Shown: positions 1 to 22,012 of the stretch, piece by piece
How positions within the stretch are numbered: position 1 is the first letter of the stretch
Layout: each line of letters starts with the position of its first letter
Source: Paulownia fortunei
Taxonomy: Eukaryota > Streptophyta > Magnoliopsida > Lamiales > Paulowniaceae
DNA: 64,000 bases
Assembly (NCBI GenBank): GCA_019321725.1
Contig: CM033111.1
Coordinates: 9,858,001 to 9,922,000 of the forward strand
Direction: 5' to 3'
Notes under the pieces: generated by a model
What the model was told of the DNA's origin: nothing
The model's database searches: none
Seen by the model: the letters and a program-made list of their open reading frames with translations, nothing else
Translations under genes and position numbers: made by a program

Positions 1-203
1 GATTCGCTCTTGTATTACGTTGGTTTTTTTAGTTATAGCATACATTATTTTTTTATATATTCTAAACCACATAAAGCCTACTTTTTTTAGAAATATAATC
101 CTAAAATCTTCAAACAACTTCTCTGTGGATCAACCTCAGACTCATGATAAATTTATTACATAACACAACCTGCACTTGTGTTTGCAACCTTTAAGTTGTA
201 GCA
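1..203 (+). repeat. 3' end of the 5' LTR of the outer Athila-like element
   Basis: From about base 11 to 203 this matches the end of the 3' LTR (21268-21460) with a few substitutions and two small indels, and ends in TGTAGCA against TATAGCA. The PBS follows after 6 bases, as expected for a 5' LTR. The remaining roughly 2.5 kb of this LTR lie left of the window. Confidence 0.9.
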
Positions 204-209: not shown

Positions 210-227
210 TGGTACCGTTACCGAGAA
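210..227 (+). other. Primer binding site of the outer element (tRNA-Asp-like)
   Basis: TGGTACCGTTACCGAGAA differs from the usual Athila-type PBS TGGCGCCGTTGCCGGGGA by four transitions, all C to T or G to A, as methyl-cytosine decay would give. It starts 6 bases after the LTR end and would prime minus-strand DNA synthesis. Confidence 0.8.
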
Positions 228-540: not shown

Positions 541-1600
541 GCCAGATATGATTCATTTACTTTCTAATTTCAATGGGTTAGACTCTGACCTTACTTGCAT
601 CTAAAATAATTTGATGAAGTTTTTGATGATCAAACTTGTACAAATGAAATTGTTAAGATCAAATTATTTTCTTTTTCTTTAAAAGATAAAGCAAAAATTT
701 GGTTTAATTCTTTAAAACCTAGGTCAATTGACACTTGAAAAGAAATGCAAACTGAATTTTCAAAAAAGTTATTTTCAACTCATAAAACTAATGCTTTGAA
801 AATATAAATCTAAAACTTCTCTCAAAATTCTAATGAAGTTTTATTTCAATGTTGGGAAATATTTAAAGATTTGTTGAATTTATGCCCACATTATGGTTTT
901 GAAAAATGACGCTTAATTAATTTATTTTATGAAGGTTGAACTCTTGAAACAAAATAATAATGGTGAGTTTTTTGATAAATAACCTTATAAAGCCTTAGAA
1001 TATCTAGACTATTTGGTAGAAAACTCTCAATCATGGTATAATGTTAATTCTTCCGAAGATTCTATTAGATATAATCTTGCTAATAGTAATAAAGAAAATA
1101 TACCTTAGTCAAGAATGTGACCTAAATGCTAGGACTGCTAGTTTAACAAGAAAAGTTGAAGCCATGGAACTTAAAAAAGTAAAGAAAATCAAATTTATGC
1201 AAGAGGAAGAAGTTTGTAGTAATTGTGAACTTATGGGGCACTCCACAATAAATATCCAAATATTCCAGTACAAATAAATTTCATGAACACATTCAAAAAG
1301 CCTTTTCATTCTCTATATTCTAAAACTTACAATCCACAATGGAGAAATCATCCTAATTTTAGTTGACGAGATGATAACCGTGCCCAACCACTACATTCAC
1401 AAAAGCCACCAAACTTTTATTCTTATCCAGCTCCACATACAAAATCCCTTGAGGAGACTTTGCAAGCAGTTATACATAAACAAATAAACATCAATAATCA
1501 AACTTCACAAGCCATCAATGAGATAAAAAATACACTTTCAACATTAACCGCCTCTTTGCGCACTCAGGAAAAAGTAGTTTCCAACTCAACCTTAACCTAA
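541..1600 (+). pseudogene. Outer element gag, degenerate
   Basis: Gag would form the particle that packages element RNA. Translated piecewise, the region contains the retrotransposon Gag core: a KLFSFSLKDKAK-like stretch near 660-705, a WFNSL stretch, and an FSKKLFSTHKT-like stretch around 755-790. After this come a CWEIFKDLLNLCPHYG-like motif near 850-900 and a zinc knuckle beginning C-x2-C-x4-H at 1215-1241 whose final Cys is not seen. A Q/N-rich coiled stretch follows at 1450-1590. The core matches the inner element's Gag in order and spacing. Several stops (for example near 618, 735, 807 and 906) and frameshifts rule out a functional protein. No start codon can be chosen with confidence. 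Confidence 0.75.
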
Positions 1601-2089
1601 TCTTTTCACTCAATGTTATGTTTCTTCTTTATGTGAAAATTCAATCAATGAGGCTAATTCGGTCACAACTATTCAGAATGGAATAGTTGATGACAAAGCT
1701 ATTCATTCCAAGGAGAAAATTTCTAATCCATCTTCACAAATAAAGAATGAAAATAGTCTTGACGATGACGGTAAGTTTAATGAAGGTGAGTTTGAAAATG
1801 ATGAAAAAGAAAATACTCACCTCTAGCTCATTTTCCTCAAAAATTGCAACCAACTCAGAAATTAAACTCAAATTCTGAAATTTTTGAACTTTTTCAATAA
1901 GTTAAGATTAATATTTTACTGTTAGATGCAATCATACAAGTTCCTTCTTATGCCAAATTTTTAAAAGATTTGTGTATAATAAAAAAAACATCATGTACAA
2001 AATAATACATTTTTAATTGAAAGTGTTAGTTCAATCATTTAATAATTTAGTCAACCCAAGTACCAAGATCCAAGTTGTCCAACCATTTC
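1601..2089 (+). other. Gag-protease linker of the outer element, non-functional
   Basis: About 490 bases between gag and protease. Short frames give an Asp/Glu-rich stretch (around 1750-1825) and fragments resembling the linker found before the protease in Athila-like Gag-Pol. No recognisable domain and no intact frame. Confidence 0.5.
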
Positions 2090-2596: not shown

Positions 2597-3720
2597 AAAA
2601 AGACACACTTTAATACTCTTTCTGAATTTTTCTAGGTATAAGAAAAACATTTTTGGAAGCTAAGGTTTGAAGAACTTTCATCATCAACAGTACAATCTGT
2701 TCCATCAAGTATTAAAACTCCCATGATTGATATGAAATATTTGCCTTTTGATTTGAAATACTCTTTCTTGGGTGAGAATGAGATTTTTCCAACAATAATT
2801 TTTTATAAACTTGATGCATTCCAATGAGGTAAGTTGATCAAAACTCTTTAAATGCATAAGAATGATTTAGGATGGACTATTGCTAACATTAAAGGCATTA
2901 GTCCTTTTAATTTGTACACATAACATCTATCTAAAGGAAAATGCTAAAACTTCTAGAGAGATGCAATGAAGCCTAAATCCTAATATGAAAGAAGTAGTGA
3001 GAAATAAAATTATTAATATCTTAGATAATGGAATCATTTATCCTATTTCTCACAGCAAATTGGTGAGTCCTACTCAAGTTGTACCTAAGAAATCTGGAAT
3101 TACTGTAGTCAAGAAATAGAATGATGAATTAATTCCAATTATGACTGTTACTAGTTGGCGAACGTGCATTGACTATAGGAAACTCAAATTAGTTACTAAA
3201 AAATATCATTTTCCACTACCCTTCATGGATTAAATTTTAGAAAGAGTTGCAGGACATGAATTCTACTGCTTCTTAGATGGATATTATGAGTATAATCAAA
3301 TTGCAATTTCACTTGAAGATCAAGAGAAAATAATTTTTACATGTCTTTTTGGTATTTTTGCATATCGAATGATACCTTTTGGATTATGTAATGCACTAGC
3401 TACATTTCAATGATGTATGCTTATTATTTTTAGTGACATGGTTGAATGTTTTCTTGAAATCTTCATGGATGATTTTTCTATTTTTAGTAATTCATTTGAC
3501 GATTTCTTATCTAATTTAGAAAATAAATTGATCAGGTGTGAAGAAAAGAATCTTGTAATCAATTGAGAGAAATGTCATTTCATGGTAGCAACTGATATTG
3601 TTCTTAAACATATTATTTTGTAAAAAGGTATTGAAGTAGACAAATCTAAAATCGAGTTAATTGTCGATTTGCCAATACTAAAATCTGAAGAAGGAAAGAT
3701 CATTTTTAGGACATGTTAGT
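2597..3720 (+). pseudogene. Outer element reverse transcriptase, degenerate
   Basis: RT would copy element RNA into DNA. Visible in order: the pre-RT linker (about 2660-2940), VVPKKSGITVV near 3079-3111, the CIDYRKL motif near 3164-3185, the FLDGY-like motif near 3271, an IIFTCLFG-type strand near 3330, and the catalytic FMDDF box at 3462-3476, which keeps both aspartates. At least five in-frame stops fall in about 200 codons (for example near 3117, 3231, 3411, 3565 and 3621), several at positions where relatives have Trp, Arg or Gln codons. It is clearly inactive. Confidence 0.85.
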
Positions 3721-4360
3721 TTTTATAAAAAAATTATCAAAGATTTTAGTATAATATGTAAACCTTTATGTAATCTTCTAACAAAAGACACTATATTTGA
3801 ATGGACTGAAAATTATGAAAATGCTTTTATTAAGCTTAAAAGCATGCTTACTACTGCTCCAATCATGCAGCATCCAGATTGGACTTTACCTTTTGAAATA
3901 ATGTGTGATGCTAGTAACTATGCTGTTGGAGCTGTCTTGGGACAAAGAAAAGATAAGAAACCATATGTTATTTACTATGCAAGCAAAACTTTAAATAGTG
4001 CTCAATTTAATTATTCAACAACTGAAAAAGAATTGCTATAGTTTTTGCATTGGACAAATTTAGATATTATTTTGTTAGCTCACCAGTTGTTTTCAGTGAT
4101 CATGCAGCTTTGAAATATCATTTGTCAAAAAAAAATATCAAACCTAGATTGATTATATGAATTATCTTACTTCAAGAATTCAACATTATGATTCGAGATA
4201 ATAAAAGAGTAGAGAATGTGATAACTAATCATTTGTTGAGGCTTGTTTGTGATGACTCAATTCAAACTACACCCATTAATAACACTTTTCTTAATGAATA
4301 ACTATTTAATGTTTCTATTTTACCTTGGTTTATTGTTAATTTTCTTGTAACATGAAAGAT
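3721..4360 (+). pseudogene. Outer element RNase H, degenerate
   Basis: RNase H would remove the RNA strand during reverse transcription. An open stretch at 3844-4041 carries the connection and the first half of the domain, with IMCDASNYAVGAVLGQR including the first catalytic Asp, then YYASKTLNSAQFNYSTTEKELL with the conserved Glu. A stop or shift follows, and the AVVFALDKFR-like part continues in another frame from about 4042. The end of the domain (YLLSKK-type, then a RLI..ILLLQEF-like stretch) decays to about 4200. The inner element's RNase H has the same layout. Confidence 0.82.
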
Positions 4361-4469
4361 GCCATCGCATTGGAACTTCTGAGACAAAAATAAGTTTTTG
4401 ACTTAGGTGGAAATTTTTTATTAGGGTGATCCATACCTATTCAAATGTTGTTTCGATCAAATATTTCGA

Positions 4470-4940
4470 AAATGCATTTCTCATAAGGAGATAGGCAATA
4501 TTATTAAATTTTGTCATTCAAAAGCATGTAGTGGCCACATTTCGGTAAAGAAAATCGCTGCAAAGATCTTGCAATGTAGATTCTATTGGCCAACTCTTTT
4601 CAAAAACACTTACACTTTCTACAAAAGTTAGAATCTATTTCAAAGCGAAACATGATGTCCCTACACCCTATCCTAGTGATTGAAATATTTGATTGTTTGG
4701 GTATTGACTTCATTGGACCATGTCCATTATAATTTGATTTTATTTACATATTGGTCGCCATAGATTATGTCTCAAAATAGATCGAGGGAATTCTCTATCG
4801 AAACAATGATCACAAAATAGTGATAATTTTTTGATAGAACATATTTTAAGTCGATTTGTAATTTTTTGATCCATTATCAGTGATGGGAGAAAATATTTTT
4901 GTAATCAAATTTTTGGAACTTTAACGAGAAAATATGGAAT
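4470..4940 (+). pseudogene. Outer element integrase, N-terminal half up to the nested insertion
   Basis: Integrase would insert element DNA into the chromosome. The zinc domain is recognisable as CHSKACSGHISVKKIAAKIL around 4510-4570 followed by FYWPTLFKN; the Cys pair further on is lost. The catalytic core begins with CLGIDFIGP (first Asp at 4706-4708), a [11 protein letters not shown] strand near 4750, and IISDG with the second Asp at 4882-4884. Several stops interrupt it. Similarity ends at the codon where the inner element is inserted (4940/4941) and resumes at 16276 with the rest of the core. Confidence 0.85.
4936..4940. repeat. Target-site duplication GGAAT, left copy
   Basis: GGAAT directly before the inner element's terminal TG is repeated at 16276-16280 directly after its terminal CA. 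A 5-bp duplication is the normal size for LTR-element integrases. Confidence 0.93.
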
Positions 4941-6204
4941 TGTTGCAAAAATTCATGAACGCAAGTGCACGCTATCATTACAAGTAATAACATGATGAGT
5001 AGATTATCGTTCCCACGAGAACTATAAAATTACTAAATACCAAAATTTTGTCAACTCTAATTTTATTTGAACAAACAAAAGCGAGTGGTAATTAATGCAA
5101 ATAAATTTAAATTACTCTACAAAATGATGCACAAAATAGAGTAAAAATAAATATCAATGATTATAAAGACCTAGGGTTATGATTTTATCATAATGAGTTT
5201 GAGTTGAATAATCTATCTTATCAATTTCTACTTATTTCTCAAGTGATAGTTGAGAATCCCTAAATTATCCATTAGCCTATCCTAAGGTCTAATGAAAATA
5301 CCATCAATTGCTAACTCACTATATTCTTATGTGAATTATAACAATCAATAATTCATTTAGTTCTATGGATCTCCAATAAAACTACACAAATCATGAAAGT
5401 ATATTTCTATCTCACATGCAATTTATGATTCTCTATACTTAGAATTAGACATATATATCACCTCTTAGGTTAATATAATTATCAAATCATTCAATTAGTG
5501 GCCAAATAATTGAAAGCATTAAGAACAATGTAGAAAACTCAACTTGATAGATAAATCAAGAATTGACTTGATAAAAATAGTCAACCCATCCTAATTAGAT
5601 TACATCACAACCCTAGAAATGGAAATTAGTTCATGATGAAAATAAGAAATATCTTAACAATATTCATATATAGATTCAAATGAAGAGATGAAAATAAAAT
5701 CAAACTTCAAAGAGGATGAGTTTTTCTTTCCTTATAGATATCTTTCTTCAAACTTGGAAGAATTCGTCCCTCTTCCCCAAAATTCTTTCTTCTTGTCTTG
5801 TTCTTCCTTTTTCACTCTCTTCTCCATTCTCTTTTGTCTCAAAAATCCTCTCCCCCTCATTTGGAGGCTCTTGGGATCTTAAAATTTTGATTGGGATGCC
5901 CTAAAGAGGGCAAAATGTCAATTTTAGCCTCACAAATTCATCAGGCAGCGCCTAAGCACTGCCTTCACTGGACAAAATTTGTTGTCCAGTAGCTATAGCG
6001 CTTAGGCACTGGAGCTACTGTTCATCGGACGATTTTTTTTTTTAAACAAGTAGATTTTTGGCACATCCAATGACATTCTTCCTTTATCTTCAACTCTGCA
6101 AAATAAACACTAAACACAATAATGAAAATCATAAAAAATCTCAAAAACTAAATAAAAAGTTAAGCAAATGGTGCTCAATTTATGGGTATAATTTTCACTC
6201 ATCA
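4941..6204 (-). repeat. 3' LTR of the inner element
   Basis: 1264 bp, beginning TGTTGCAAAA and ending CACTCATCA on the + strand, pairing with 14992-16275. It contains a pyrimidine-rich tract (about 5780-5870) and GC-rich GCGCC/GCACTG palindromic motifs at about 5944-6027 in an otherwise AT-rich sequence. Short frames inside it are not genes. Confidence 0.94.
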
Positions 6205-6220
6205 AATACCCCCAAACTTA
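6205..6220 (-). other. Polypurine tract of the inner element
   Basis: Read on the minus strand, AAGTTTGGGGGTATTTG abuts the 3' LTR start. This is the usual Athila-like form of the RNase H-resistant primer for plus-strand DNA. Confidence 0.8.
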
Positions 6221-7527
6221 ACATTTTGCTAGTCCTCGAGCAAAACAAAGAAATAAAACAAGTATAAAAACAAACGATGATCACAATCAACTGACTACAT
6301 GGCCTCAGAAATCAATGTAAATTTATAACTTAAGGAATTATCTAAATATCATCAAAATGCATGATTTCAACTCAAGTGTCAAATTCACCTATCTTTAAAT
6401 CCTTTGAGTGTGTGTGTGTCTAGCCTTTTACATTTAACATTTCGTTACCCAGATTGGTTTATGCAAACTTACAACAGAATTATTGATCTCTTATTTTGGT
6501 ATTTTTGAATTCTATATGCTTGTTTTTCATGTCACTCTTCACTAATGTAGACCCACACAACATCAAGGATCAGTAGGACTTTGAAAACTTATAATGTGTG
6601 GCTAAGGTAATGATAGGACAAAAGATAATACAGTAGCTCAAATTACTCATAGCACACAACTATTCTAGAACCTTGTTGATGAACCCCACCACATCGTCGT
6701 CTCACACCTTCATAAACCTTTCATCTTTTGATTTGTCACACCACTTTATTCATTAAACACCCTTTGATGTGTTACACCTCTAAACTTATTTATTTTTATG
6801 AACAATAGGTGTTGCATTATTTTCTCATATTTTTTTATATTTTTTTTTCAGGAGTTATGTACAACGCCACCTCTCTTTGCCATTTTTTTTAAACCACTTT
6901 CAATGCTCAAAATGATGTTACTAGAATAGCAATGAGCTGAGTGTAGGGTAAAATGTAAGAAAATGGCTAGGGTAACTTTTTGTAGGGTGACAAAGAACAT
7001 AGCTCAATAGGCTTAATAGGGGATACTAGGGATTATGCATCATAAACAAAGTGGCTTGAAAGGCTCAAACGGTCCAAAAATGGCCTAAATCACTTTTCTA
7101 ATATTATGTAGTCTAGGATTTTGCCTCGAGTGACAATCAAACAAGTTCTAGAATTATATGAGATCGCCAAAAGAAAGTATTGAGTTCACATAAACTTCTT
7201 CTAAGTAAATAGAAAATCCAAATATTCAAGGCTATGTGCTCAATATGCCAAAGGATTACAAGAAAGATAAAAAATCAACAAGAGCTAAGCATGTACATGA
7301 GCATAATATTCATCAATTTCCAAAAGTTATAAATAAACATAATCAAATTCTCATCATTAGCTTTAGGTATTTGATCATAATCAGCATTTCTAACCCCTTT
7401 TTTTTAACTACAACCAAAACAAAATAGAAAATAACCAGATGCCCCCAAACTAGAAGTGAACATTGTCCTCAATGAAAAGATAAATAACACAGAAGTGAGA
7501 AGGGCTTTCCTGAAGGTGTGTTCAATC
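6221..7527 (-). other. Untranslated segment between ORF3 and the PPT of the inner element
   Basis: About 1.3 kb with no recognisable domain on either strand. It has an AT-rich body, a T-rich run (6820-6850) and scattered short frames. The position corresponds to the long non-coding stretch commonly found before the 3' LTR in Athila-like elements. Confidence 0.6.
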
Positions 7528-8613
7528 CTATGCGTCCTCATCAATTGGGTTGGGCATGGGTGGTGGAGCGGAAAATTGTGGAGGAGGTGGTGGTGTAGGA
7601 AAAGTAACATTGGCTCCCAATTGAATGAATGCTTGCTCGATGGCGGATGCAACTCCAACTTGATAGGTATGAAATGCGGCATTATGGGAAGCAAGTTGGT
7701 GAACGTCAGTCTGTAGGCCTCGAAAATCCTACTCCAAGATGGTGAGGCAGTCGGTAGTAGAAATCTGACGAGATGAGCATCGTGGTTAGGAAGGAGCGGT
7801 GGTATCAATAGTGGGTCGGGTCGTATAACTCTCTGCAATAGCGTTACTAATGATAGTTTTGGGAAGGAGCAGTTCTTCATCCGGCCTCCAAGGCACACCA
7901 ACAGTCTAACAAAGGCCTGTAATAAGATAAAGATGTCCAAGACCACCAGTGGTGGTAACCTGGATAGCATGTAGGATGGATTGATAGATAACACGCCCTA
8001 TATTAATGGATTTGCCAGTAATAATGGCAAAGAGTAATATAGCCCTCTCTTTGGTAAGATCACTTAAATGAGTTGTGGGCATGAGCTTTGCTCCAATGAA
8101 ACTATGCCAAACTTTATATACCCCATATAAATGCGTGGAACTGAAAGTGATCACCGTCTCATCTTTTATTGTCCATTGTGCTCCCGGATAGGCAAGTGTA
8201 GAAATAATTTCATCAAAAGTCACCTCATTGCTCTTATAAGTGGAATATTCATCATCATCAATATCCGGAAGACCATAAAATGCATTGATGGTTGAGTGGT
8301 CAAAGTGGACCCGCTTGCCTTGCACAAAGACTCGACAACTCTCACAACTGGTTGCATTGGCATAGAATTCTCAAACTAAAGGGACCACAACATCAATGGG
8401 TTGTTGAGTGAATTCTTGCCATCTTTTTCTTTCAATAATTTGTGGAGTTGGAGCTAAAGTTGTGTTGATGCCTCTTTCTTGAGTTAAATTGCATTTGATG
8501 GTGTGATTTAGATAATGCCAATGAGTAGTAATATTCAAGAACTTGTGCTTATCAAATGTGGAGGAGACGGAAGTAGAAGCAGAAGCGGTCGACTTTCTTT
8601 TCTTAAAAGCCAT
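7528..8613 (-). pseudogene. Inner element ORF3 in the env position (plant retrotransposon accessory protein), with stops
   Basis: On the minus strand a single frame runs from an ATG (MAFKKRKS...) at 8613 to a stop at 7528, about 361 codons, with only about four internal stops (near 8372, 7909, 7795 and 7735). The N-terminus is Ser/Thr/Lys-rich. The middle holds a REFYAN-like stretch followed by V.GKRVHFDHSTINAFYGLPDI (about 8330-8260), which I recognise as the helical domain of plant retrotransposon and 'putative plant transposon protein' families. The C-terminus holds a heptad-like stretch and a Pro-rich tail ending PNPIDEDA. I see no signal peptide, clear membrane anchor or protease site, so a true envelope glycoprotein is not supported; its role is unknown. 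It lies downstream of integrase, where Athila elements carry their extra ORF. Confidence 0.7.
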
Positions 8614-9535
8614 ATGCCAATCACTACCGAAAGTTGAAAATAGCCGCAAGCAATAATATTACCTTGCAAAATGGATTTAGAGATATCCCCAAAATATCAA
8701 GCACCAAACAAGTTTCGGAGAACAAGCTTCAAATAAGGCAAGACATTGCACCCATCTCTCTTCGGTCTTTTATCAAACAGTTAGTGTGCAAGAGTAGGGA
8801 TTCTTCTTGTGAGTGATGATTTTAGAACCTCAATACCCTAATTTTAACAACCAACCAGCAACTACCAACAATTAACCACAAATTAACCACACTAATCATC
8901 AAAAGCCAACATGATAAATCTATTCCCGTTCCTTCTTACCAAAATTGAGATTTGAAGAAAACCCTTTATAATACCTATCCACAAAAATAAAAGAAGAAGA
9001 TGAGGGTAGTAAGCAATAGTAAGAGTAAATGTGAGTTAAGGGGTAGCACAATAATTGGGGAAGAAAAAAATAAAAAATAAAAAATAAAAAAAATAGAGAA
9101 TGAAGGGGAAATGAAGAAAGAAAGAAAGAAGAAAAGAAAGAGAAACGCTGCTAAACTTGCTACCTTTTTCTAATTTTTTTTTATATTAATAAAATTTCCC
9201 AGCGCTGCAGCGCTGGGCTTTCTACACATTTGGGGCAATCACCAATGCCTCGGCGCTAGGCACCTAACACTGCAGCACTGGGCTTTCTGCCCATTTGGTA
9301 GTTGCCCAGTACCGAGATGCTAGTTTTTTGCCATTTTCCTTTTTTATTATTATTATTATTATTATTATTTTTTAATATAACCAAAAAAGAAATTATAAGA
9401 AACACAAATGCATAAAATACATGAAAACTATAGAATGACTTGGGTTGCCTCCCAAGAAGCACTTGGTTTAAAATCTCTAGCTAGACTTTCACTGAGGATT
9501 ATAAGGTTGGTTCGGTAAGGGTGATGGTAGACTTT
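8614..9535 (-). other. Intergenic segment of the inner element between integrase and ORF3
   Basis: It holds an A/G-rich tract (9060-9150), GC-rich palindromic motifs around CAGCGCTGCAGCGCTGGG (9198-9320) with two related copies of GCAGC(G/A)CTGGGCTTTCT, and an ATT microsatellite at 9344-9370. An LLGRQPK-type peptide sits near 9450, a motif often seen just after the integrase of such elements. No intact gene. Confidence 0.6.
9343..9371. repeat. (ATT)n microsatellite
   Basis: About nine ATT units inside the inner element; in one minus-strand frame it reads as a run of Asn codons. Confidence 0.95.
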
Positions 9536-10665
9536 TTCAAATCCCCTCCACCTTCAATGAATACTTTAAGCCTTTGGCCATTAACTTTAAACCTTCGATC
9601 CTCACTCTGAATTTCAATGGCACCATGCGGGAAAACTTGGACTACTATGAACGGTCCACACTACCTCAATCGCAGCTTACCTGGAAACAAACATAAATGA
9701 GAGTTAAACAATAAAATTTTCTGACCAGGACTAAACTCTCTTTGAAAGATATGCTTATCATGCCACTTCTTGGTGCGCTCTTTGTACAACTTGGCATTAT
9801 CATAGGCCTCTTGGCGAAATTCATCTAACTCATTCAATTACAACGATCGATGTTCACCCGCTGCATAAAGATTGAAATTCAGTTTCTTGGTAGCCCAGTA
9901 TGATTGATGCTCCAACTCGACTGGTAAATGACATGCTTTCCCATAAACCAAATGATACGGCATCATACCAATAGGAGTTTTGAATGCAGTTCGGTAAGCC
10001 CAAAGAGCATCATCCAACTTCCGAGACTAATCATTCCGAGAAGAATTTACAGTCTTTTCCAGAATCCACTTAAGCTCTCTATTTGAGATCTCAATTTGGA
10101 CATTAGTTTGGGGGTGATAAGAGGTAGCAACTCTGTGTGTAACCTCATACTTAGCCAAAAGAGCATCAAGTTGCTTGTTACAGAAGTGCTTGCCTTCATC
10201 ACTTATGATTGCCCTTGGTATGCCAAACTGAGTGAAAATTTATTTTCTCAAGAAGTTCATCACTGCTTTAGAATCATTTGTGGGAAAGGCCACTGCTTCA
10301 ACCCACTTAGAAACGTAATCAATTGCCACAAGGATGTAGAGATTATTGAATGATAGCAGGAATGGCCCCATGAAGTCAATGCCCCAAACATCAAATAATT
10401 CTACCTAAAGAATGTTACTCAATGGCATTTCATGTCTCCTAGATATGTGTCCTATTCGCTGACATCTATCACATGAGGCCATGAAAGCTTGAGCATCTTT
10501 AAATAATGTCGGCCAATGGAAACCTGATTCAAGCACTTTAGCAGCTGTTCTATTCCCACCAAAGTGCCCACCATACAAAGATAAGTGACAATGGTGAAGA
10601 ATACTTTGTATCTCTTCATCGGGAACACACTTCCGTATAATCTGGTGTGGACAAAGTTTAAACAA
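9536..10665 (-). pseudogene. Inner element integrase, lightly degenerate
   Basis: Minus strand. The zinc domain is complete: H-x3-H in HHCHLSLYGGH and CDRCQR (10665-10405), with FHWPTLFKDA between. The core follows from about 10400: GIDFMGP (first Asp), [24 protein letters not shown] (second Asp), then [19 protein letters not shown] with the catalytic Glu, and the [17 protein letters not shown] and [11 protein letters not shown] blocks (about 9990-9900). The C-terminal part ([30 protein letters not shown]) ends near 9540. Only a few stops occur (for example near 10245, 10030 and 9850), so it is much better preserved than the outer copy. No chromodomain is seen. Confidence 0.85.
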
Positions 10666-10739
10666 GAAAAGATCTTCCCAAAAATAATGTCTAACATCAT
10701 AAATAAACTTTCTATTTTGTTAACAAGTTAAGTCAGGGG

Positions 10740-11360
10740 GAAAAACATTACTTGCTAAGAAATTTACTAAATCAACATACCAAGGAAGTTTACCAATAGC
10801 CAAAGCAAAAGGTTGCTCATCTGAAAAGTTTCAGTAACGGGAGGCTCATGATCAACATACTGATCATGTTTCTCCAACCTAGAGAGGCGATCCGCAATGA
10901 TATTTTTCATTCCCTTCTTGTCTCAAGTCTCCAAATCAAATTCTTGGAGCAACAAGACCCATCAAATCAACTTTGGTTTCGTATCTTTATTCTCAATCAA
11001 ATATTTGATTGTGGAATGATAAGTGTACATAATTACCTTTGTGCCAATCAAGTACTGCCTAAACTTGTCAAATGCAAAAACTACAGCTAGTAGCTCATTC
11101 TCAGTAGTTGCGTAGTTCATCTGTGCATCAGTTAGTGTTCGACTAGCATAATAGATAACATGAAAAATTTTACCTTTTCGTTGTCCTAAAACTACTCCCA
11201 TGGCGAAATTACTGGCATCACACATTAGCTCAAAAGGTAAACTCCAATCAAGGGCAACAATAATAGGGGTAGAAATTAGAGCAGATTTTAATTGTTGAAA
11301 TGCATCAAGACACTCATCATCAAATTTAAAAGATATCTCTTTCATAAGTAGATTGCACAA
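10740..11360 (-). pseudogene. Inner element RNase H
   Basis: Minus strand. An open stretch of about 130 codons (11360-10962) carries [16 protein letters not shown], then [21 protein letters not shown] with the first catalytic Asp, [35 protein letters not shown] with the conserved Glu, and a [13 protein letters not shown] stretch in place of the usual DH-x-AL. After a frameshift the LLLQEFDLE and ADRLSRLE blocks continue to about 10840. It follows RT directly and precedes the integrase zinc domain, as in all Ty3/gypsy Pol proteins. Confidence 0.83.
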
Positions 11361-11399
11361 GGGCTTTGTTATCTTTGAAAAATCTTTGATAAAGCGTCT

Positions 11400-12660
11400 A
11401 TAGAACCCTGCATAGCCTAGAAAAACTTTGCACTCCTTTTACTGAAGTAGGTGGAGGTAACTTTTCAATGGTTTTAATCTTAGCCCGATCCACTTCAATG
11501 CCATTTGCAGAAATTTTATGGCCAAGGACAATCCCCTCTTACACCATAAAGTGACACTTCTCCCAATTTAAAACTAAGTTGATTTCTTCACATCTTTTTA
11601 ACACCAATGTCAAATTCTGCAGACAAACATCAAATAAGTCACCAAAAACTGAAAAGTCATCCATAAAAATTTCAATGAAATTTCCACCATATCAGAAAAA
11701 ATTGCCATCATACACCGCTAAAATGTGGCCGGTGCATTATACAACCTAAAGGGCATGCGCCTAAATGCAAAAGTGCCATAAGGGCATGTAAAGGTGGTTT
11801 TTTCTTGGTCCTCGGGTGTAATGGAAATTTGATTATAACCAGAATAACCATCTGGGAAACAATAATAAGCATGACCAGCTAGCCTATCCAACATTTGATC
11901 AATAAAGGGCAAGGGGGAGTGATTTTTCCTAGTAGCCTTATTTAACTTCCTATAATCCATGCACACACGCCAACCAGTTACAGTTCGAGTGGGAATCAAT
12001 TCATTATTTTCATTTTCGACTACCGTTATTCCACCTTTTTTGGTACTATTTGGACAGGACTTACCCACACATTATCAGAAATATGATAGATAATACCTGC
12101 ATCTAGTAGCTTTAAAACTTCAGCTCTTACCACCTCTTTCATGTTTGGATTTAAGTGTCATTGATGCTCCACGGATGGCTTGTAGCTCTCTTCCATCAAA
12201 ATCTTGTGCATGCATATGGAGGGACTAATACCTTTTATATCGGCGATAGACCATCCTAATGCCGTTTTATGGTCTCTCAACACTCTCAGCAATTTTTCTT
12301 CCTATTCTTCATTTAATGCAGCAGATATAATAATAGGCAAAGTAGAAGATTCACCTAAGAAAGAATACCTCAAGTGGTTTGGCAATTATTTGAGTTCTAA
12401 AATGGGTGGTTTTTCGATTGATGGTACTGGTTGGTCAGAAGCCGTCCCAAGATCTTCAAATAGCCTCTTGACTAACACTAGTGGTATTGCATCAAGTATC
12501 TTTAAACACTCCAAAATATCTGCATCATCATTTACATTTGCTTCACCCATACAAACCTCAAGAGGATCTCCAGTATAGTTGGATTGAAAGAATTCCTTTA
12601 CATATTCTTCGGTGGCATCCATCCTTAAGCAAAAATCTTTCTTATTTGGGTATTTCATAG
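11400..12660 (-). pseudogene. Inner element reverse transcriptase with N-terminal linker
   Basis: Minus strand. The linker after protease runs 12658-12386 (open) and then PLPSHLRYAFLGES near 12390-12350. RT blocks follow: IVPKKGGITVV around 12050, CMDYRKLNKATRKNHSPLPFIDQMLDRLAG (11970-11885), a FPDGYSGYNQI block (usually FLDGYSG; the first catalytic Asp is kept), TFTCPYGTFAFRRMPF, and NAPATF ending at 11718 at a stop. The catalytic FMDDF box is at about 11669-11655 after that stop. Further stops and shifts interrupt the thumb and connection (11600-11400). Confidence 0.85.
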
Positions 12661-12718
12661 CCTTGAAAACATTGAAAGTTACTTGCTCCTCTTGTACCCT
12701 TAAGATTAATTAGCCCTT

Positions 12719-13126
12719 TTACACATCGATAAGGGTCCTTCCCATTGCCAAGAAAGGTTGACCAAGAATGATGGGGATCTCTTGGTCTTCCTCCATATCT
12801 AAAATAATGAAGTCTGCTGAGAAGATAAATTTATCCACCTTTACTAGCATATCTTTGATTACTCCCCTTGGATACTTAATGGATCTATCGGTAAGTTGCA
12901 GCGAGACTATTATCGGCTTTGCTTCTCCAAGCCCAAACTTTCTAAAAATAGAAAGAGGCATCAAGTTAATGCTTGCACCAAGATCACATAAAGCTTTATC
13001 AAAAAATGAATTGCCAATTGTGCAAGGAATTGTAAAACTCCTTGGATCTTTTAGCTTAGGTGGAAGCTTTCTTTGCAATATAGCATTACACTCCTCAATG
13101 AGTGCCACTGTCTCGTATTCCTCCAA
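12719..13126 (-). pseudogene. Inner element retropepsin-like protease
   Basis: Minus strand, about 135 codons open. It begins with an ALIEECNAILQRKLPPKLKDPRSFTIPC-type pre-protease stretch, then LCDLGASINLMPLSIF with the active-site Asp, SLQLTDRSIKYPRGVIKDMLVKVDKFIFSADFIILDMEED, and IPIILGQPFLAMGRTLIDV with the second conserved ILG block. The domain itself looks intact, but its frame differs from that of the preceding gag by one shift. The 13127-13262 interval joining them also has several stops, so the Gag-Pol reading is broken. Confidence 0.85.
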
Positions 13127-13262
13127 CTTTTATTTGTTAGAAAGGATCTCCTTCATAAATTTTACGTAGCTGGGCATTTGCTCTAAGGCATCTGCAAAAG
13201 GAATATTAATATGCAACTTTTTAAACACATCCAAAAACTTAGAAAATTGCTTATCTAATTTT

Positions 13263-14745
13263 TTATTTCTGAAAGTGTTGAGGAAATGGGATATGAGGCA
13301 CATATGTTGGCGGGTTGTCTAGAAACAACTTTGATTTAGGCTTCTCTACTTCTTTGCTTGGTGTGTTATCAAATTCCTTTACCACTCCTTCCTTTGCCAG
13401 CTCCTTTGGAGTAGTGATTTTTCTTTCCAATTTCGGCAACTCCTTACCGCCACGAAGAGTAATGGCTTGCACATTCTCTTTAGGATTAATCTCAGTGTTA
13501 CTTGGCAATGAACCTTGAGGTCTTGCACTTAACATACTAAAAATTTGACCTATTTGGACCTCCAGGCTTCAAATAGTGGCTGATTGATTCTGAATAATAG
13601 ACTCTTGTTTTTGCAGTGTTGCCTCTGTTCTTTCCATGAATTTCTCGATAGCATCTTCTAGGGGAGCTTTAGGTACTTATTGAGACTGATTTTGAGGGTA
13701 AAAATTGGCTGGTTGTGCACCCACTGCATTTTGTCCATTTCTCCATAAAAAGTTAGGATGGTTTCGCCATCCTAGATTATATGTGTTGGAGTATGGATTG
13801 TTTTGCCCGTTAGCATTACCCATAAACTGTGCTTGCTCTTGCTGAGATGGAGTGAATGGATTCCTGACTTGACACTCTGTACTATGGTGAGGACCACTAT
13901 AAAAATTGCATACCTCAACTGCTATAGGAGCAGGATTTGTATACATGGAGTTAAATTGTTGAGACAAAACAACAGCAACTTGAGCAGTAAGAGTAGCGAA
14001 TGCATCAACATCATGAACTCCAAATACTTTCTTTGCTGCAATTCTTTCTGAAGGCCATTGATAAGCATTAGCAGCCATGGTCTTAAGAAGACTGTAGGCC
14101 TCCTCATGTGTTTTGCCTATAAGAGCTCTGCTAATGGCAACGTCCACGAGAGTTCGGGTTACACCGCTCAATCCATTGTAAAATGTCTGAACTTGTAGCT
14201 ATTTTGGAAGACCGTGATGAAGACATCTTCTCAATAACTCCTTATACCTTTCCCATACCTCATGCAATGATTCCATTTCATATTGGTTGAATGTAGTGAT
14301 GTCATTCCTCATCTTTGTCGTCTTCGCTAGTGGAAAATATTTAGCAAGGAATGTTTGAGCTAAATTAGCCCATGTAGTGATTGCACCCAGTGGCATTGAG
14401 TTCAACCAACTCTTTGCCTTGTCCCTTAGTGAGAAAGGGAACAACCTCAGTCTAATGGTATAATCGATAACACCATTCTGCTTAAATGTATCACAGATTT
14501 CAAGGAAGCTGGCTATGTGTACATTTGGATCCTTGTTAGCTAACCCACAAAATTGATTAGCTTGAACCATTTGTATGACAAGCTGGCTTAATCTCAAAAT
14601 TATTCACTTGAATTGCAGGGCATCTAATTCCAATCAGATGTTCATTTACCAATGGCAAAGCATAATCACGAAGCGCCCTATTGTTGGCCCTTGGTGCTTG
14701 TGGTGGCACATTATTGTTATCATCAACTACCCTATCATTTTCCAT
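13263..14745 (-). pseudogene. Inner element gag, interrupted by stops and one shift
   Basis: Minus strand. The likely start is the ATG at 14745 (MENDRVVDD). A frameshift near 14580 moves reading to the frame used from 14597 down to 13263, which is broken by stops near 14197, 13675 and 13570. The Gag core reads DPNVHIASFLEICDTFK, then LRLFPFSLRDKAKSWLNSMP and FLAKYFPLAKTTKMRNDI, with WERYKELLRRCLHHGLPK at 14230-14199. A zinc knuckle has decayed to C-x2-Y-x4-H-x4-C near 13910 (second Cys replaced by Tyr). The tail has a Q-rich coiled stretch and an ITLRGGKELP motif before the protease. These blocks are diagnostic of Athila-like Gag. Confidence 0.85.
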
Positions 14746-14967
14746 AATGTCTTGAGGTAATATGGGGGCTCCTCTCTTTTCTTTTCAGTTTTGTTTACAA
14801 GTCTTTTCAATTTTCGAATCAAAAGGGATCAAGACTCCATTTCCAAATTTTCTCATACACCTAACAAAACACCTGGAAAAGTCAAGAACGGCAATCAAAA
14901 TAAAATCAAATAAAAGTTTAAATTAAAATCAAAAGTACTTAGTATCGATATTAATAAAACAAAATAG

Positions 14968-14985
14968 TCCCCGACAATGGCGCCA
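14968..14985 (-). other. Primer binding site of the inner element (tRNA-Asp-like)
   Basis: On the minus strand TGGCGCCATTGTCGGGGA, the Athila-type PBS, starts 6 bases after the end of the 5' LTR. Confidence 0.88.
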
Positions 14986-14991
14986 AAAACT

Positions 14992-16275
14992 TGTTGCAAA
15001 AATTCATGAACGCAAGTGCACGTTATCGTTACAAGTAATAAAATGATGAGTAGATTATCGTTCCCACGAGGACTATTAAATTACTAAATACTGAAATTTT
15101 GTCAAATCTAATTTTATTTGAACAAACAAAAGTGAGTGGTAATTAATGCAAATAAATTTAAATTACTCTACAAAATGATGTGCAAAATCGAGTAAAAATA
15201 AATATCAATGATTATAAAGACCTAGGGTTATTATTTCATCAAAATTAGTTTGAGTTGAATAATCTATCTCATCAATTTCTATTTATTTCTCAAGTGATAG
15301 TCGAGAATCCCTAAATTATCCATTAGCCTATCCCAAGGTCTAATGAAAATACCATCAATTGCTAACTCACTGTATTCTTATGCGAATTACAACAATCAAT
15401 AATTCATTTAGTTCTATGGATTTCCAACAAAACTACACAAATCATGAAAGTATATTTCTATCTCACATGCAATTTATGGTTCTCTACATCTAGAACTAGA
15501 TACATATATCATCTCTTGGGTCAATATAATTATTAAATCATTCAATTAGTGGCCAAATAATTGAAAACATTAAGAACAATGTAGAAAACTCAACTTAATA
15601 GATAAATCAAGAATTGACTTGATAAAAATATTCAACCCATCCTAATTAGATTATATCACAACCCTAGAAATGAAAATTAGTTCATGATGAAAATAAGAAA
15701 TATCTTAACAATATTCATACACATATTCAAATGAAGAGATGAAAATAAAATCAAACTTCAAAGAGGATGAACTTTTCTTTCCTTGTAGATATCTTTCTTC
15801 AAGCTTGGAAGAATTCGTCCATCTTCTCTAAAATTCTTTCTTCTTGTCTTGTTCTTCCTTTTTCACTCTCTTCTCCCTTCTCTTTTGTCAAAAAAATCCT
15901 CTCTCCCTCATTTGGAGGCTCTTGGGATCTTAAAAATCTGATTGGGATGCCCTAAAGAGGATAAAATGTCAATTTTAGCCTCACAAATTCGTCAGGCAGC
16001 GCCTAGGTGCTGATTGGCAGTGCCTAAGCTCTGCCTTCACTGGACAAAATTCATTGTCCAGTAGCTGCAGCGCTAGGCGTTGGAGCTACTATTCACCAGA
16101 CGATTTTTTTTTTTAAACAAGTAGATTTTTAGCGCATCCAATGACATTCTTCATTTATCTTCAACTCTGCAAAATAAACGCTAAACACAATAATAAAAAT
16201 CATAAAAAATTTCAAAAACTAAATAAAAAGTTAAGCAAATTGTGCTCAATTTATGGGTATAATTTTCACTTATCA
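14992..16275 (-). repeat. 5' LTR of the inner element
   Basis: 1284 bp, pairing with 4941-6204. The net 20-bp length difference lies near 16005-16035, where the GCGCCTAGG/GTGCCTAAG motif is partly duplicated. It is followed by the right GGAAT copy. Confidence 0.94.
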
Positions 16276-16280
16276 GGAAT
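16276..16280. repeat. Target-site duplication GGAAT, right copy
   Basis: Matches 4936-4940 and is the first sequence after the inner element's terminal CA. Confidence 0.93.
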
Positions 16281-16860
16281 CATACATAAAATTGTAACCC
16301 TTTATCACCTTCAAACAAATGGACAAGTTGAACTTGCAAATAGAGAAATAAAATAAATTTTGAAAAAGACAGTTAACCCAAATCGTAAAGATTGGTCTCT
16401 TACACTTACTGATACACTTTGGGCATATAAAACTTCTTTCAAAACATCAATAGACATGTCTTCTTATTGGATAGTTTATGGAAAACCTTATCATTTACCT
16501 ATTGAACTTGAACATAAAACTTATTGGGCAATCAAAATGACTTCAACCTTGATGAGCTTCAAAATTGGGCAAATTGAAAATTAATGAACTTAAAAAATTG
16601 ATAAATGATGCATATGAGAATTCTAAATTTCATAAAGCAAGAATCAAAGATTTTCATGATAATAAAATATCAAGAAAAATATTTGAAGTTGGTCAAAATA
16701 TTTTGCTTTATAATTCTCGATTGCATTTGTTTCTTGAAAAATTGAGATCAAGGTGGAGTGATCCTTTTGTTGTAAAATAGGTATATCCTTATGGGGCGAT
16801 TGACATTGAAAATCATAGAAATGATAACGTATTCAAAGTAAATGGATAAAGGCTCAAACC
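16276..16860 (+). pseudogene. Outer element integrase, C-terminal half after the nested insertion
   Basis: Directly continues the core interrupted at 4940: an IIHKIVTLYHLQTNGQVELANREIK block (16278-16353) with the catalytic Glu, then [20 protein letters not shown] and [13 protein letters not shown] (to about 16520). A shift near 16560 is followed by the C-terminal domain (NELKKLINDAYENSKFHKARIKDFHD, FEVGQNILLYNSRL, LRSRWSDPF), and VFKVNG.RLKPF ends at about 16865. Two stops and a shift are visible. It lacks a chromodomain, as expected for Athila. Confidence 0.87.
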
Positions 16861-17840
16861 ATTTCTAGAGAATCAATTTTCACAAGAAAAAAATCTTTTT
16901 CTTTCTAACCTTTGTTATGATTAGTGTGTGTATATACTTATTTTCTCTAACTTTATTTATTTTATAGGCTTTTTTTTATTTTTTATCCTAGTTAAATGGT
17001 GGATAATGGTACTCCGTGGCTATTAAAGTCAGACATATCAATTTCCCAAATAACTTAAATCTATGTACAAAGTTTCTCTCTTTCTCATTATTTTTTCTCT
17101 TGTTCTTTTTAAAATTAATGATATTATTCTAACTCTCAAGAAACGATTTTCTTTTCTTCAAAAATATAATTTTAAAAATATATAAAATAAGGATTGAAAG
17201 ATTAAGAATGCTTATGCACAAGAGCATCCTAGGGGACATATGATAGATGATTGAAGCAAAGGTAAGAGTAGCAGGTGAGTTTTCACATGAGTTTTCAAAC
17301 TTGCTTACTAAATACATGCCTGGTTTTGATAAAAATATATATTCAAAAAAACAAAGGGTGAAAAAAATGCAAGTTTGTCATAAATTTGCTCGATGAACTT
17401 GCAACACAGAGTATCATTCCTTAGGAATGATTTTTGAAAATCAAAAAGATAAAATTTAATTCATTATGGATAGACTGAGTAAGGAGTCTTTAGATGACAT
17501 TAGATTGACTATTAAAATGCATTCATGTGGATTAATACATTGTGAAATTCTTAATTATGAAATCACTTCTGATATGAATATGAGCATTGTAGTTTTGGAA
17601 ATTTGACATTAAAAATTCCTATTTGCCAGTTTATTAGAAAAATGGATGGGAAGCATATCCTCGACACATAAAGGGCATTTAAGCTATTACTGGACATAAA
17701 ACTAGAGGAAGATGTGAGCTACAAACACAACTATATATACATTCACGTGTAAGTAAATAATTTTTAAATTTTGTGTCCTTATTTTCAACCTTTCTGATAA
17801 AAAAAAAGACGTGTAAGAAATGCATTCCCTGTTTATACCT
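16861..17840 (+). other. Outer element segment between integrase and the LOG-like pseudogene
   Basis: About 1 kb without an intact gene. One protein-like short frame starts at 17466 (MDRLSKESLDDIRLTIKMHS..., 47 codons, stop at about 17607), which I cannot assign to a family. The part from roughly 17600 onward may be the captured 5' flank of the LOG-like gene, but its left boundary is not visible. Confidence 0.4.
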
Positions 17841-17849
17841 CAATAAATA
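17841..17849 (+). promoter_or_regulatory. TATA-like box before the LOG-like pseudogene
   Basis: CAATAAATAG lies 50-58 bases before the ATG at 17899, a normal spacing for a plant core promoter with a short leader. It is distinct from the LTR promoter of the host element. Inferred only from spacing and composition. Confidence 0.35.
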
Positions 17850-17898
17850 GCATCGTACTCACTCCAGTTTGCTCAACTCACTTTAAAAAAAAATAAAA

Positions 17899-18528
17899 AT
17901 GAAAGGGTCTTCTACTTGTAAGTTCAATTATATTTGTGTTTTTTGTGGATCCAATCTAGAAATAAATAGTAAGTTTATAGGGGCAGCCAATAACCTTGGT
18001 AGAATTTTAGCAGAAAGAAAAATTCATTTAGTATATGAGGAAGGCAGTCCAGGGTTAATTGGGAGTTTGCTACTTCTTCTCATGCAGGAGGAGTCAAAAT
18101 TTTAGGAGTTATCCCAAAACCTTTAACAGTACAAAACATCACAGGTTTGACCATCAGAGATGAGCTAAGAGTGTCACATATTCAGGACATAATGTCTAAC
18201 ATATTAAACAATGTGGATGCATTCATCACCCGACGTGGTGGTTTGGTGCACTAGAGGAGTTATTTCAAGTTTTCTCTTGGGCATAACTCAACATTCACCA
18301 GAAACTGTAGGTATTCTTAATGTTAATGATTTCTGAGATGGTTTGCTATCTTTTGTAGATCATGTTGTGAAAAAAAGTTTTATTTTACTGTTTACGAGAT
18401 GAATCATTATTTTTGCTCCAATACCTGACCAACTAATTGATCAACTTCTAGCATAAATGCCAGAACCTGATCCTGCCATGGCCTGTATGGATTGGTCTAA
18501 CAGGAATAGTGTCGAAAATGCAAAATGA
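17899..18528 (+). pseudogene. LOG-like cytokinin riboside 5'-monophosphate phosphoribohydrolase, captured and broken
   Basis: Functional LOG enzymes release active cytokinin base from the nucleotide in the cytosol. Here an ATG opens a frame with YICVFCGSN (family: RICVFCGSS) and HLVYEEGSPGLIG (family: DLVYGGGSIGLMG). A +1/-1 shift near 18065 is followed by VKILGVIPKPL, NITG, DELRVSHIQD and NNVDAFITRRGG, where the family has DAFIALPGGYGT, so the nucleotide-binding PGG is lost. Another shift near 18245 precedes EELFQVFSWAQ and HQKPVGILNVNDFYDGLLSFVDHVV. A QLIDQLLA..PEPDPAMACMDWSN-type tail ends at a stop at 18526-18528. Total length (about 210 codons) equals a full LOG. No introns are seen across the whole length. 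It lies between integrase and PPT of the outer element, where Athila relatives keep ORF3. It is non-functional as read. Confidence 0.85.
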
Positions 18529-18688
18529 ATTTAACTCTTAACCCGTGAAATTTATCATTAATGGTTTCAACTAATAGTGTGTTTGTGTTGTTTCATCTCT
18601 ATTTTTTCTAGTAAGCCACATTTCATGTTATACCTTTTAAACTTTATTTTCCCATCTATTTTCAATATTGGGGACAATGTCTTAATTA

Positions 18689-18707
18689 GGTTAGGGGAGG
18701 GAATAGC
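18689..18707 (+). other. Polypurine tract of the outer element
   Basis: AGGTTAGGGGAGGGAATAGC, preceded by the TTGGGGACAATGT block often found just before the PPT of such elements, abuts TGATATCATG, the presumed LTR start. Confidence 0.6.
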
Positions 18708-21460
18708 TGATATCATGTTTTATGTGTTCAATGTGTGTTTTTCTAGTTTTTTTTTAAATACAAGCATATTTTTTTTTGTCCGTTCAAAATCATGAATAAG
18801 GGTGACAAGAGCAAATGGTCATCTTTTAACTCTCTTGAGACACCCCCATTTGTTTTTGCAAAACTTGTCGTGTCTGTGAAGTTTTTAACTAAAATTTTGT
18901 AAATTATCAAAGTATAATTGCAATCTTTTTTTTGTTAGAGTCCAAGGGTACTATCTTGAAAAAAAAATAGTCTTGTGCACATCCTAATCCTTGTGGAAAG
19001 ATTGGTTGCGATACATATAACTAAAATTTCCAACCATGTTAAAGTGTGTACTTTTTAATATTCACACGTCTTTTGTGAATAAGTGGAGAGTTTGAGAAAA
19101 CAAGCATTCTGAACTTTAATTGATAATTTGAATTGGTTTCATTTGAATTTGAGATACTTAATTATGTCTATCTTGCATGTGAAGAAATGAATTAGGTAAA
19201 CATGTGTAGTCATCTATTTCTATTGAAATATTTTAATTTGTAGCTAATGATGTGAGTATAATTATAAATTCTTTTTTTTGATCTTCTGTTATCATGTGAG
19301 TTATGTTGTAAAAAAAAAACAAAAAGAAATACAAAAAAAAACAAACAAAGAAAAAGAACAACAAAAAAAACAAATAAAAAAAATTCACCATTTCGTTTTC
19401 AAGTTAACAAATGAAAATTTAAGGCATATTTTGATAAGATAGACTAGATATTTCAAATTTTGTTACTACATATTTTATACTCAATTTTAGTTTGAACACT
19501 TGTCCTAAATCATTTAAGTTATTTCCCAAAGTGTTTTAACTATTTTCCAACTCCATGAGTGAATACCTTTCCAACTTAATGGCACTTACCTATGAGGATA
19601 TGGATATGTATCTTGGTTTGTGGAATAAAAAGTTAACTTAGTGTACATATACACACAACTTTTGGAAAAAAATTCTCGATAGCATATATAATCTCTAACA
19701 AATGATTATTTGTGATTGTTTAACTATTTTACAGATTTTTCTTTAAATGTTGATTATCATGTCATGTTCCTTTTTATTTGTATTGCATTTCATTATGCTA
19801 TAATTACTAGGGACTAGTAAAAAGTTAGTTAGGGGTGCGATGAACATTTAAAAGTGTATAATTAATTAGTATTTATATAATTATTTTTACTTTAAAATTG
19901 TCATTAGAACTTCCAATTAAAGAATTTTTGTGTTTTAAAAATAAAATGGGAAATCAACATTAAAAAATGAGATTAAAAAGTTTTATCTTCTTTTGTGAAG
20001 GTTTTAGAAAAACTAACGTAACTTTTGATTCTAAAATAGTTTTGGGTTAATTCTTGAGGCTATGGATTGATAAGTCATTCATCTACAAGTTCATGTAAAT
20101 ATTGGATCCCATACTAAATATTTAAGGATCAAAGAAGTTGGATTACAAGTGATTGTACAAAATAGATTGCCAAAAATTCAAATCAGAGTTAAGTCCAGTC
20201 TTAACCTATTTTACCAATTAGGTCATATCTCTTAAACCAAAATTGATCTTGATTTAGAATTTGGAGATATTATACACAAGAGGTAGACAAACAAGTTTGT
20301 TAAAGACAAGATGTGAGAAAATATGTCAAAATGGTTAATAAACATGTTGCATTGAGCTACTAATATTTGAAGGATGGCTCTTGAATATTATCCGGTAATT
20401 TGACTATATCTCCCTCATCTGGCTGCTAAATTTGACAAATAATATATGAAAATATATCAGTATAGAAAGATCTACAATTTTATTCACTCATCAACAAAAT
20501 CTAGCTATATCTAGCTTAAAAAATTTAATTTAATTAGGTAGGTGAAAATTTAAAGAATTTGGTATAACAACTTATCAACTATTGACAACTAGCATACCAC
20601 TTGATTGTTTAACTCATCCATTATATATTTGGCCTCTAGCATATGTCAAATACTATAAATAGATCATGCATTAAGCTCATAAGAATAGGGGAAAGGGTAG
20701 ACAGTTTCTTTAGACTAAATTTTCTAGTAGTAATAAAAATTTATTCTCTAGTTTCTCTTCTATTTTTGGTCTTTCCTACTTTCATTATATCTTTCTAAAT
20801 TTTATTTTGTTGAGGAATAAGGGTGAACCTCTTGATGGAAAAAGATGAATGGTTATAAAGGTAGAAAATATTTAAGTGTGTTGTATTTTGTTTAAACTTG
20901 TTATCTAAACCTTACTTGTTTTGTGGTGATTCTGGATTTATGTATCACTAATGGCACAACAAATACTTGGGTTCATTTAGTTAGACGTTTGGTTTTACTG
21001 TACCAACCACTAATGTGAAACCTTGATTTGTTGTTGACAAAGGTGTGCATAAATACTTGATCTAATAAACAAGTATTGGCATTGAGAGATAATTTATAAA
21101 TAGTAAGACAATATCATAATTACCTTATTGCATGAGCTATTTGATAACATCTTCCCATTGAAACCTTCATTATGTATGAATTTCAATAGTGACAATTAAA
21201 AGAGGTGAAAAATAATAAATAATCGTTCCTCTATTCAAAATACAAGAGCGAATCTCTAATCTTCAGTATTTGTATTACGTTGGTTTTTTTAGTTATAGCA
21301 TACATTATTTTTTTATATATTCTAAACCAATAAAGCCTTTTTTTTAGAAATATAATTCTGAAATCTTCAAACAACTTCTTTGTGGATCAACCTCAAAATC
21401 ATGATAAATTTATTACATAACACAACCTGCACTTATGTTTGCAACCTTAAAGTTATAGCA
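18708..21460 (+). repeat. 3' LTR of the outer element
   Basis: The end at 21460 (TTATAGCA) is certain because it matches the 5' LTR end at 203. The start is inferred from the PPT and the TG at 18708, giving about 2.75 kb, long but possible for this lineage. It contains an A-rich run with CAAA/GAAA units (19309-19385) and a TATA box at 20654. Only its last about 200 bases can be paired inside this window. Short frames inside are not genes. Confidence 0.72.
20654..20661 (+). promoter_or_regulatory. LTR TATA box of the outer element
   Basis: TATAAATA within ACTATAAATAGATC, about 800 bases before the LTR end. Transcription would start about 30 bases downstream, near 20685. Confidence 0.5.
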
Positions 21461-21660
21461 GGAAAGAGAAAAGCAAACTCAAGAACTAAAAACTATAAGC
21501 TGGGTATATCAATTTCTTTTTGGATGAAACTCACCTTAGAGAAGATTTTTTAGCATAACTATAGTGCAGAAGATGTTCAGTTGCTTGAGAAGAGAAGGAA
21601 AGAGAGAGCTATTGTGAATGAGCAGATGATGGGCCCGATAACAATTTTTTCTTAAAAAAG
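21461..21660. repeat. Duplicated host segment, copy A (cut by the outer element)
   Basis: From the first base after the outer LTR, about 170-200 bases match 22013-22140 and 23795-23860 with small differences. The shared sequence includes AAACTCACCTTAGAGAAG, which on the minus strand reads CTTCTCTAAG|GTGAGTTT like an exon end with a splice donor. No protein family recognised; it may be a remnant of a transcribed region. Confidence 0.65.
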
Positions 21661-22012
21661 GCCTATTTATCATACAAAAGAGTTATACATTTATTTATCA
21701 CCAAAGCATTTATTCAAATAAAAAAAACAAACCAAATCAAAATAAACCAAACCAAACAAAAAATGTAGAATATACAAAATATAAAGGAGCTTAATGATTT
21801 TTGGTAAAATAGTTATATTAGGCTAAAAAAATTCTCAACTTAATTTTGATTGAAGATTTAAAATTCGATAAAAGCTCCAACAAATCAATTTTCATACAAT
21901 AAATAGCAAAGGAAATATATTTACTTAATTTTAAGAAAATAAAAAGGGGCAATAGCTCACCTTGAGGCTTAACAGGCAGAAAACAAAGAAAACCCAAGCA
22001 TTCGAAAGTGGG
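21661..22012. other. Unassigned AT-rich sequence between the two duplicated copies
   Basis: No gene or repeat recognised. A minus-strand GTGAG-type donor context (CTTGAGGCTTAACAGG region near 21960) is the only gene-like hint. Confidence 0.3.

Follow-up and report, generated by a model that had tools for sequence, protein, structure and literature searches.

Does the LOG-like reading that lies in front of the 3' long terminal repeat (LTR) of a retrotransposon in Paulownia fortunei belong to that element, and, if so, since when and to what end? The window, that is, the whole stretch of 64,000 nucleotides that we analysed, carries this reading in a heavily damaged copy (Table 1). A sequence-only reading of the same DNA had taken it for a captured gene, full-length and broken, placed between the integrase and the 3' LTR in the slot where related elements keep ORF3. 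Our own answer, which we hold to be probable, is that LOG is a resident accessory gene of an Athila-like Ty3/gypsy lineage, anciently acquired in intronless form and favouring the element via active cytokinin.

Table 1. Features of the outer and inner elements in the window
Feature	Position	Strand	Basis or remark
Outer element 5' LTR, terminal part	1..203	+	remainder upstream of window; 10-203 vs 21270-21460, 94%
Primer-binding-site-like stretch, outer element	210..225	+	sequence reading, position by counting
Gag to protease-linker remains, outer element	1454..1987	+	tblastn matches of fused proteins
Decayed reverse transcriptase, RNase H and first part of integrase, outer element	2867..4939	+	66.6% to RT region of inner element
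Inner Athila-like element, inserted in outer integrase	4937..16273	-	GGAAT on both sides
Outer integrase / pol end	16274..16915	+	translation; 91% DNA identity to other copies
Second accessory ORF remains, broken	17119..17670	+	84% DNA identity to unbroken ORF of copy L114
Spacer upstream of LOG, TATA-like stretch and A-rich leader	17671..17898	+	kept in four other copies; 86.6% to L114
LOG, full length, broken by frame changes and stops	17899..18528	+	84% DNA identity to other copies
Polypurine-like stretch preceding 3' LTR	18689..18707	+	sequence and counting
Outer element 3' LTR	about 18708..21460	+	end pair with 5' LTR (10-203 / 21270-21460, 94%)

What stands in the window is an old, dead, nested copy of a LOG-bearing element. 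The placement of LOG between integrase and 3' LTR was borne out; beyond pol and ahead of its 3' LTR the outer element has an additional ORF, a mark of the Athila lineage of Ty3/gypsy. Its likeness to the inner element suggests that it is Athila-like; the primer-binding-site-like stretch may resemble the tRNA-Asp-type site of Athila elements. The decayed upstream parts were matched in tblastn by fused proteins of Acer (P0153, at 1454-1573 and 1820-1987) and Xanthoceras (P0013/P0052, at 1805-1930), and those further on by Primulina P0152 (72% at 3787-3981 and 43% at 4047-4580). The inner element, with gag, RT and RNase H domains and with LTRs at 4940-6204 and 14991-16275 that are 92% alike, does hold an ORF3 in the corresponding slot, as had been stated: its product at 7906-8322 matches PF20167, 'putative plant transposon protein'. 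DNA upstream of the window matches the outer 3' LTR in patches only, at 78-94%, and the window copy therefore has no LTR-based date. Compared with the copy L114, its LOG is 84.1% identical, its second ORF 84.3%, its integrase 92.0% and its element tail region 74.8%; parts of its 3' LTR are 77-78% alike to copies that have no LOG. An Rfam search of 16200-21600 gave no match. Just beyond the 3' LTR, the stretch 21461-21574 recurs at 22011-22131 (88%), and a similar stretch (78%) occurs in the DNA upstream of the window.

The LOG reading opens with an ATG at 17899; its pieces, which contain in-frame stops, occupy three frames between 17887 and 18525. When translated with X at the breaks, it matched 50 of 129 candidate proteins at E<=1e-3, with a lowest E-value of 1.2e-87, well outside what chance would give; the best match showed 69% identity over the full length, and the plant relatives have 217 aa. 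Pfam Lysine_decarbox was found on the full-length protein matches, and an Orobanche relative matches solved LOG structures of the PDB by sequence. Furthermore, the predicted structure of the LOG part of the Orobanche protein P0150 has 2a33_B (At2g37210) as its best PDB match, with E 3.3e-21 and TM 0.95 on the target. Across 14 proteins of A2 the LOG motif is invariant at R98, P113-G115, E120 and E121, and the conserved Arg with the PGGxGTxxE-type motif is presumably catalytic. Membership in the Lysine_decarbox / LOG family, the LOG fold and this motif were thus all found, and the broken full-length LOG is real. It is uninterrupted by an intron and preceded by a TATA-like stretch, a candidate promoter, both as had been noticed, and an alignment of the window with four other copies shows the latter to be conserved. 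The spacer that contains it is as conserved as LOG itself, and the length of its A-rich leader varies among five aligned copies; it is possible that an internal promoter or a splice site lies here. LOG scans of viral contigs returned either no relative or 28 loci at 25-52% identity, and the best 80 from genome contigs, at 37-46%, were bacterial by title, with no plant element in either scan.

The window taken alone, in which LOG has a TATA-like stretch of its own, allows the thought that a host LOG gene happened to lie where the element landed, or that LOG was inserted into this copy only. We therefore turn to the other copies in the 509 Mb P. fortunei assembly containing the window. A search with LOG gave 150 scored places, the best of 3759 first-look candidates, and by hand count 92 of them have no stop within the match, a share biased upward by the restriction to best-scoring places and by some partial matches. 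All of 30 LOG-picked loci, each carrying about 1500 bases per side, match the mid-region, LOG, the element tail region and the LTR start of the window, the LTR start following LOG every time. The junction upstream of LOG is kept in 29 of these loci and the one downstream likewise in 29; the integrase-to-mid junction is kept in 25, and the mid-region is complete in 25. By pattern search, 22 of the 30 have a 217-aa LOG ORF. Because picking on LOG was to be avoided, another 30 loci were picked by integrase DNA alone (from 40 scored, 2013 first-look candidates), one of them being the window, and LOG lies behind the mid-region in 25 of the other 29. The test put forward with the sequence-only reading, whether copies share LOG at the same junctions, accordingly came out in its favour, and so did the supposition that some of them carry LOG intact. 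These junctions, repeated on many contigs, led us to reject a host LOG gene beside the element; with the introns and the different tree position of host LOG added, we regard a neighbouring host gene or an insertion in the window copy only as next to impossible.

The four integrase-picked copies without LOG comprise three deletions that start ahead of LOG and end at the LTR start or within the LTR, plus a copy running into an assembly gap. They were considered as a possible ancestral state, which was rejected on this account, and among the 29 integrase-picked copies there is no empty precursor, i.e., an element before the gain of LOG. One of the LOG-less copies (L159) shows a short duplicated stretch, and its deletion terminates within A-rich tracts of the LTR. 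At each of two loci picked by the second ORF, a LOG with a broken frame follows that ORF. Since the LOG copies are mostly 97-100% alike, the lineage appears to have spread recently in Paulownia and now to occupy at least about 150 places with LOG, many of them stop-free.

How old, then, is the association, and from where did LOG come? Comparison with host LOG by tree and intron content, which had also been proposed, was made with a single Paulownia gene (C15, L178), which has about seven exons and is 47-83% alike to Arabidopsis At2g37210 in intron-free pieces. Two trees, with 33 and 27 rows, place the element-type LOGs on one side, with support of 89/92 and 87/83, and the canonical LOGs, four and five rows respectively, on the opposite side, the Paulownia host gene being among them in the second tree. 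With this moderate support, and with rows that are not all shown to lie in elements, the element-type LOGs of several eudicot families would form one clade. They have the fold and motif of canonical plant LOGs (At2g37210, At5g11950 and Paulownia L178) at about 50% identity, but differ from them in this separate clade and in lacking the exon structure of the host gene.

The location inside an element, observed directly in Paulownia, is indicated for Primulina, Acer and Xanthoceras through fused gene models. A search of 1083 longer candidates returned 43 proteins, of which two from Primulina join RNase H, integrase and LOG and two from Orobanche gracilis join the second ORF and LOG. In addition, a gag part is fused to LOG in Acer P0153 and in Xanthoceras P0052 and P0013, Pfam seeing only the LOG domains of P0153 and P0013. 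The RNase H part of Primulina P0152 is 72% alike to the outer element vs 52% to the inner, and the Acer gag part 68% vs 41%; for integrase the comparison is mixed, with 43% and 78% to the outer element vs 61% to the inner. The fused models of Primulina, Acer and Xanthoceras thus contain retrotransposon parts close to the outer element and are independent evidence for LOG in elements. Because one clade extends across several eudicot families, apart from the intron-bearing host gene, LOG looks old in the element lineage. Of the two routes offered with the sequence-only reading, capture at the DNA level and template switching from mRNA, either may apply; the evidence leans towards mRNA or an already intronless gene as the source, since the host LOG has about seven exons and the element copies are uninterrupted. 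In the scenario that we favour, an Athila-like lineage would have gained LOG once or a few times long ago and then retained it, across several eudicot families, at the place that ORF3 takes in its relatives.

Whether LOG is of use to the element is a separate matter, and within Paulownia the signs are faint. The pooled dN/dS of 22 LOG ORFs is 0.27, a value biased by picking on protein score. As a second measure we took the ratio of first-and-second to third codon positions. In the integrase-picked set LOG gave 0.90 over all 27 covered copies; with copies under 85% identity dropped, among them misaligned deletion copies, it gave 0.57 (25/29), the second ORF 1.33 (28/29) and the integrase 1.63 (29/29). 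The LOG-picked set gave 0.48 for LOG (29/29), 1.16 for the second ORF (27/29), 1.11 for the integrase (24/29) and 0.97 for the element tail region (29/29), and no significant codon-position bias was found in the window copy. We read in these ratios a weak sign of selection on LOG and none on the second ORF and the integrase. Such a weak or filter-dependent signal suits the idea that LOG was captured anciently, is useless to the element and was kept because it is harmless, being unbroken only through recent amplification; with copies as alike as those in Paulownia, many unbroken frames are expected without selection, and the three LOG-less copies did arise by deletion. Nevertheless, full length, motif residues and C-terminal tail are kept between families despite a protein divergence of 35-50%, and we consider such a passenger rather unlikely. 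Conservation between plant families, both of the motif residues and of the basic and LxLxL tail, is a better argument for function than the ratios within Paulownia.

That tail could itself be what matters. A basic patch and an LxLxL end, presumably EAR-like, are both present in 103 of 119 full-size LOG proteins, and with them the LOG of the element might act as a repressor in the nucleus or as a modifier of silencing, the tail outweighing the enzyme. However, the comparison covers these 119 proteins, many of them near-copies from few genera in a list ranked by likeness to A2; the tail is altered in Orobanche hederae and absent from P0017 and Xanthoceras. To us this makes a tail that outweighs the enzyme decidedly improbable, and a resident LOG working through cytokinin remains our preferred reading.

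LOG is not alone in its slot. Ahead of it lies a second accessory ORF that had gone unmentioned in the sequence-only reading; in unbroken copies it encodes 185 residues, among them a KKRRAKK patch and four cysteines close together. It is 60% like the N-terminal part of the Orobanche fused protein, and residues 17-143 of P0150 match the window at 17160-17552 in tblastn (50%, 2.5e-31). It is open for at least 150 residues from an ATG in 9 of the 30 LOG-picked loci, and among 150 scored places, the best of 4058 candidates, 11 rows reach 100% over 185 residues, the query's own place included.

Carlavirus nucleic-acid-binding proteins suppress silencing, and it is to them (PF01623, PF05515) that the second ORF may be related, with a basic patch and cysteines in common. 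Carla_C4 (cut-off 20.9) scored 25.1 and 25.3 in two Paulownia stretches and 23.7 and 23.4 in both Orobanche proteins; Viral_NABP (cut-off 23) scored 26.0 in both Orobanche proteins, and one reversed and seven shuffled second-ORF sequences matched neither family. On the other side, the Carla_C4 match spans about 35 profile positions, Viral_NABP stays below its cut-off in Paulownia (18.4 and 16.4), and three window pieces of the ORF, scanned alone, match neither Carla_C4 nor Viral_NABP. Moreover, no relative was found in IMG/VR contigs, and the predicted structure of this part has pLDDT <50 over most of its length, too poor for a fold search. A likeness due to nothing but a basic stretch and closely spaced cysteines is, in our judgement, just as probable as true kinship. 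The match is short and lies within a retrotransposon, unlike the viral proteins, and the homology is putative.

Returning to the benefit that we propose for LOG, we infer that an element-made enzyme, with fold and motif residues kept, would release active cytokinin where the element is transcribed. The extra cytokinin would push cells to division or to an undifferentiated state, in which plant retrotransposons may be less silenced, and new copies could consequently reach the germ line. The product of the second ORF, basic and Cys-rich, might act next to LOG by binding nucleic acid or by dampening RNA silencing. A stronger version, in which a widespread lineage carries a two-gene cassette for steering its host, joining a silencing-suppressor-like protein shared with RNA viruses to a nucleus-directed cytokinin enzyme so as to obtain a permissive dividing cell, strikes us as doubtful.

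Related elements have been met before. Steinbauerova et al. reportedly described in 2011 a LOG-like extra ORF, similar to LOGL4, in the 3' part of Athila-like elements, the same position as here. In its available part, PMC9289625 reports a YgdH (LOG) domain in Gypsy consensuses of Citrus sinensis and C. clementina and, without its count filter, in Populus trichocarpa Gypsy, and cites a 2011 survey for LOG in such elements. LOG in plant Gypsy-type LTR elements is therefore already known, and this, with the old clade across eudicot families, speaks against the notion of a fresh or isolated capture. To the domain count in the available part of that paper we add the shared junctions, the copies without breaks, the ORF ahead of LOG, the clade, and fused gene models from further families; this second ORF, the LOG tail and the breadth were not found in that part and may be published elsewhere. 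The same source, as far as available, describes an AlkB-type m6A demethylase in Gypsy elements of orchids, likewise an enzyme of host type that is retained in an additional ORF and offered as an answer to host control; that enzyme is a different one and its activity was shown in vitro, whereas the activity of the element LOG is a prediction. Our literature search returned no paper linking LONELY GUY to retrotransposon gene capture, or Athila to cytokinin riboside or LOGL4; 'carlavirus' was absent among the literature matches listed (20 of 248), and 'cytokinin' from the available parts of PMC7264820 and PMC6317226.

If the element LOG is active, retrotransposons would carry a gene for hormone activation through plant genomes, with possible effects on growth or on behaviour in tissue culture. 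Many annotated 'LOG' genes of Paulownia, and perhaps of Reevesia and Populus, may in fact be element genes, and the virus-like second ORF, if confirmed, would be a gene common to plant RNA viruses and retrotransposons.

The remainder of the window offers some minor observations. A row of plus-strand ORFs at 35224-38348 resembles a Ty1/copia element, by reading only; direct repeats at 28606-29320 and 32932-33466, 80-89% alike, are perhaps an LTR pair; and 56100-57130 is an AT-rich tract dense in direct and inverted self-matches.
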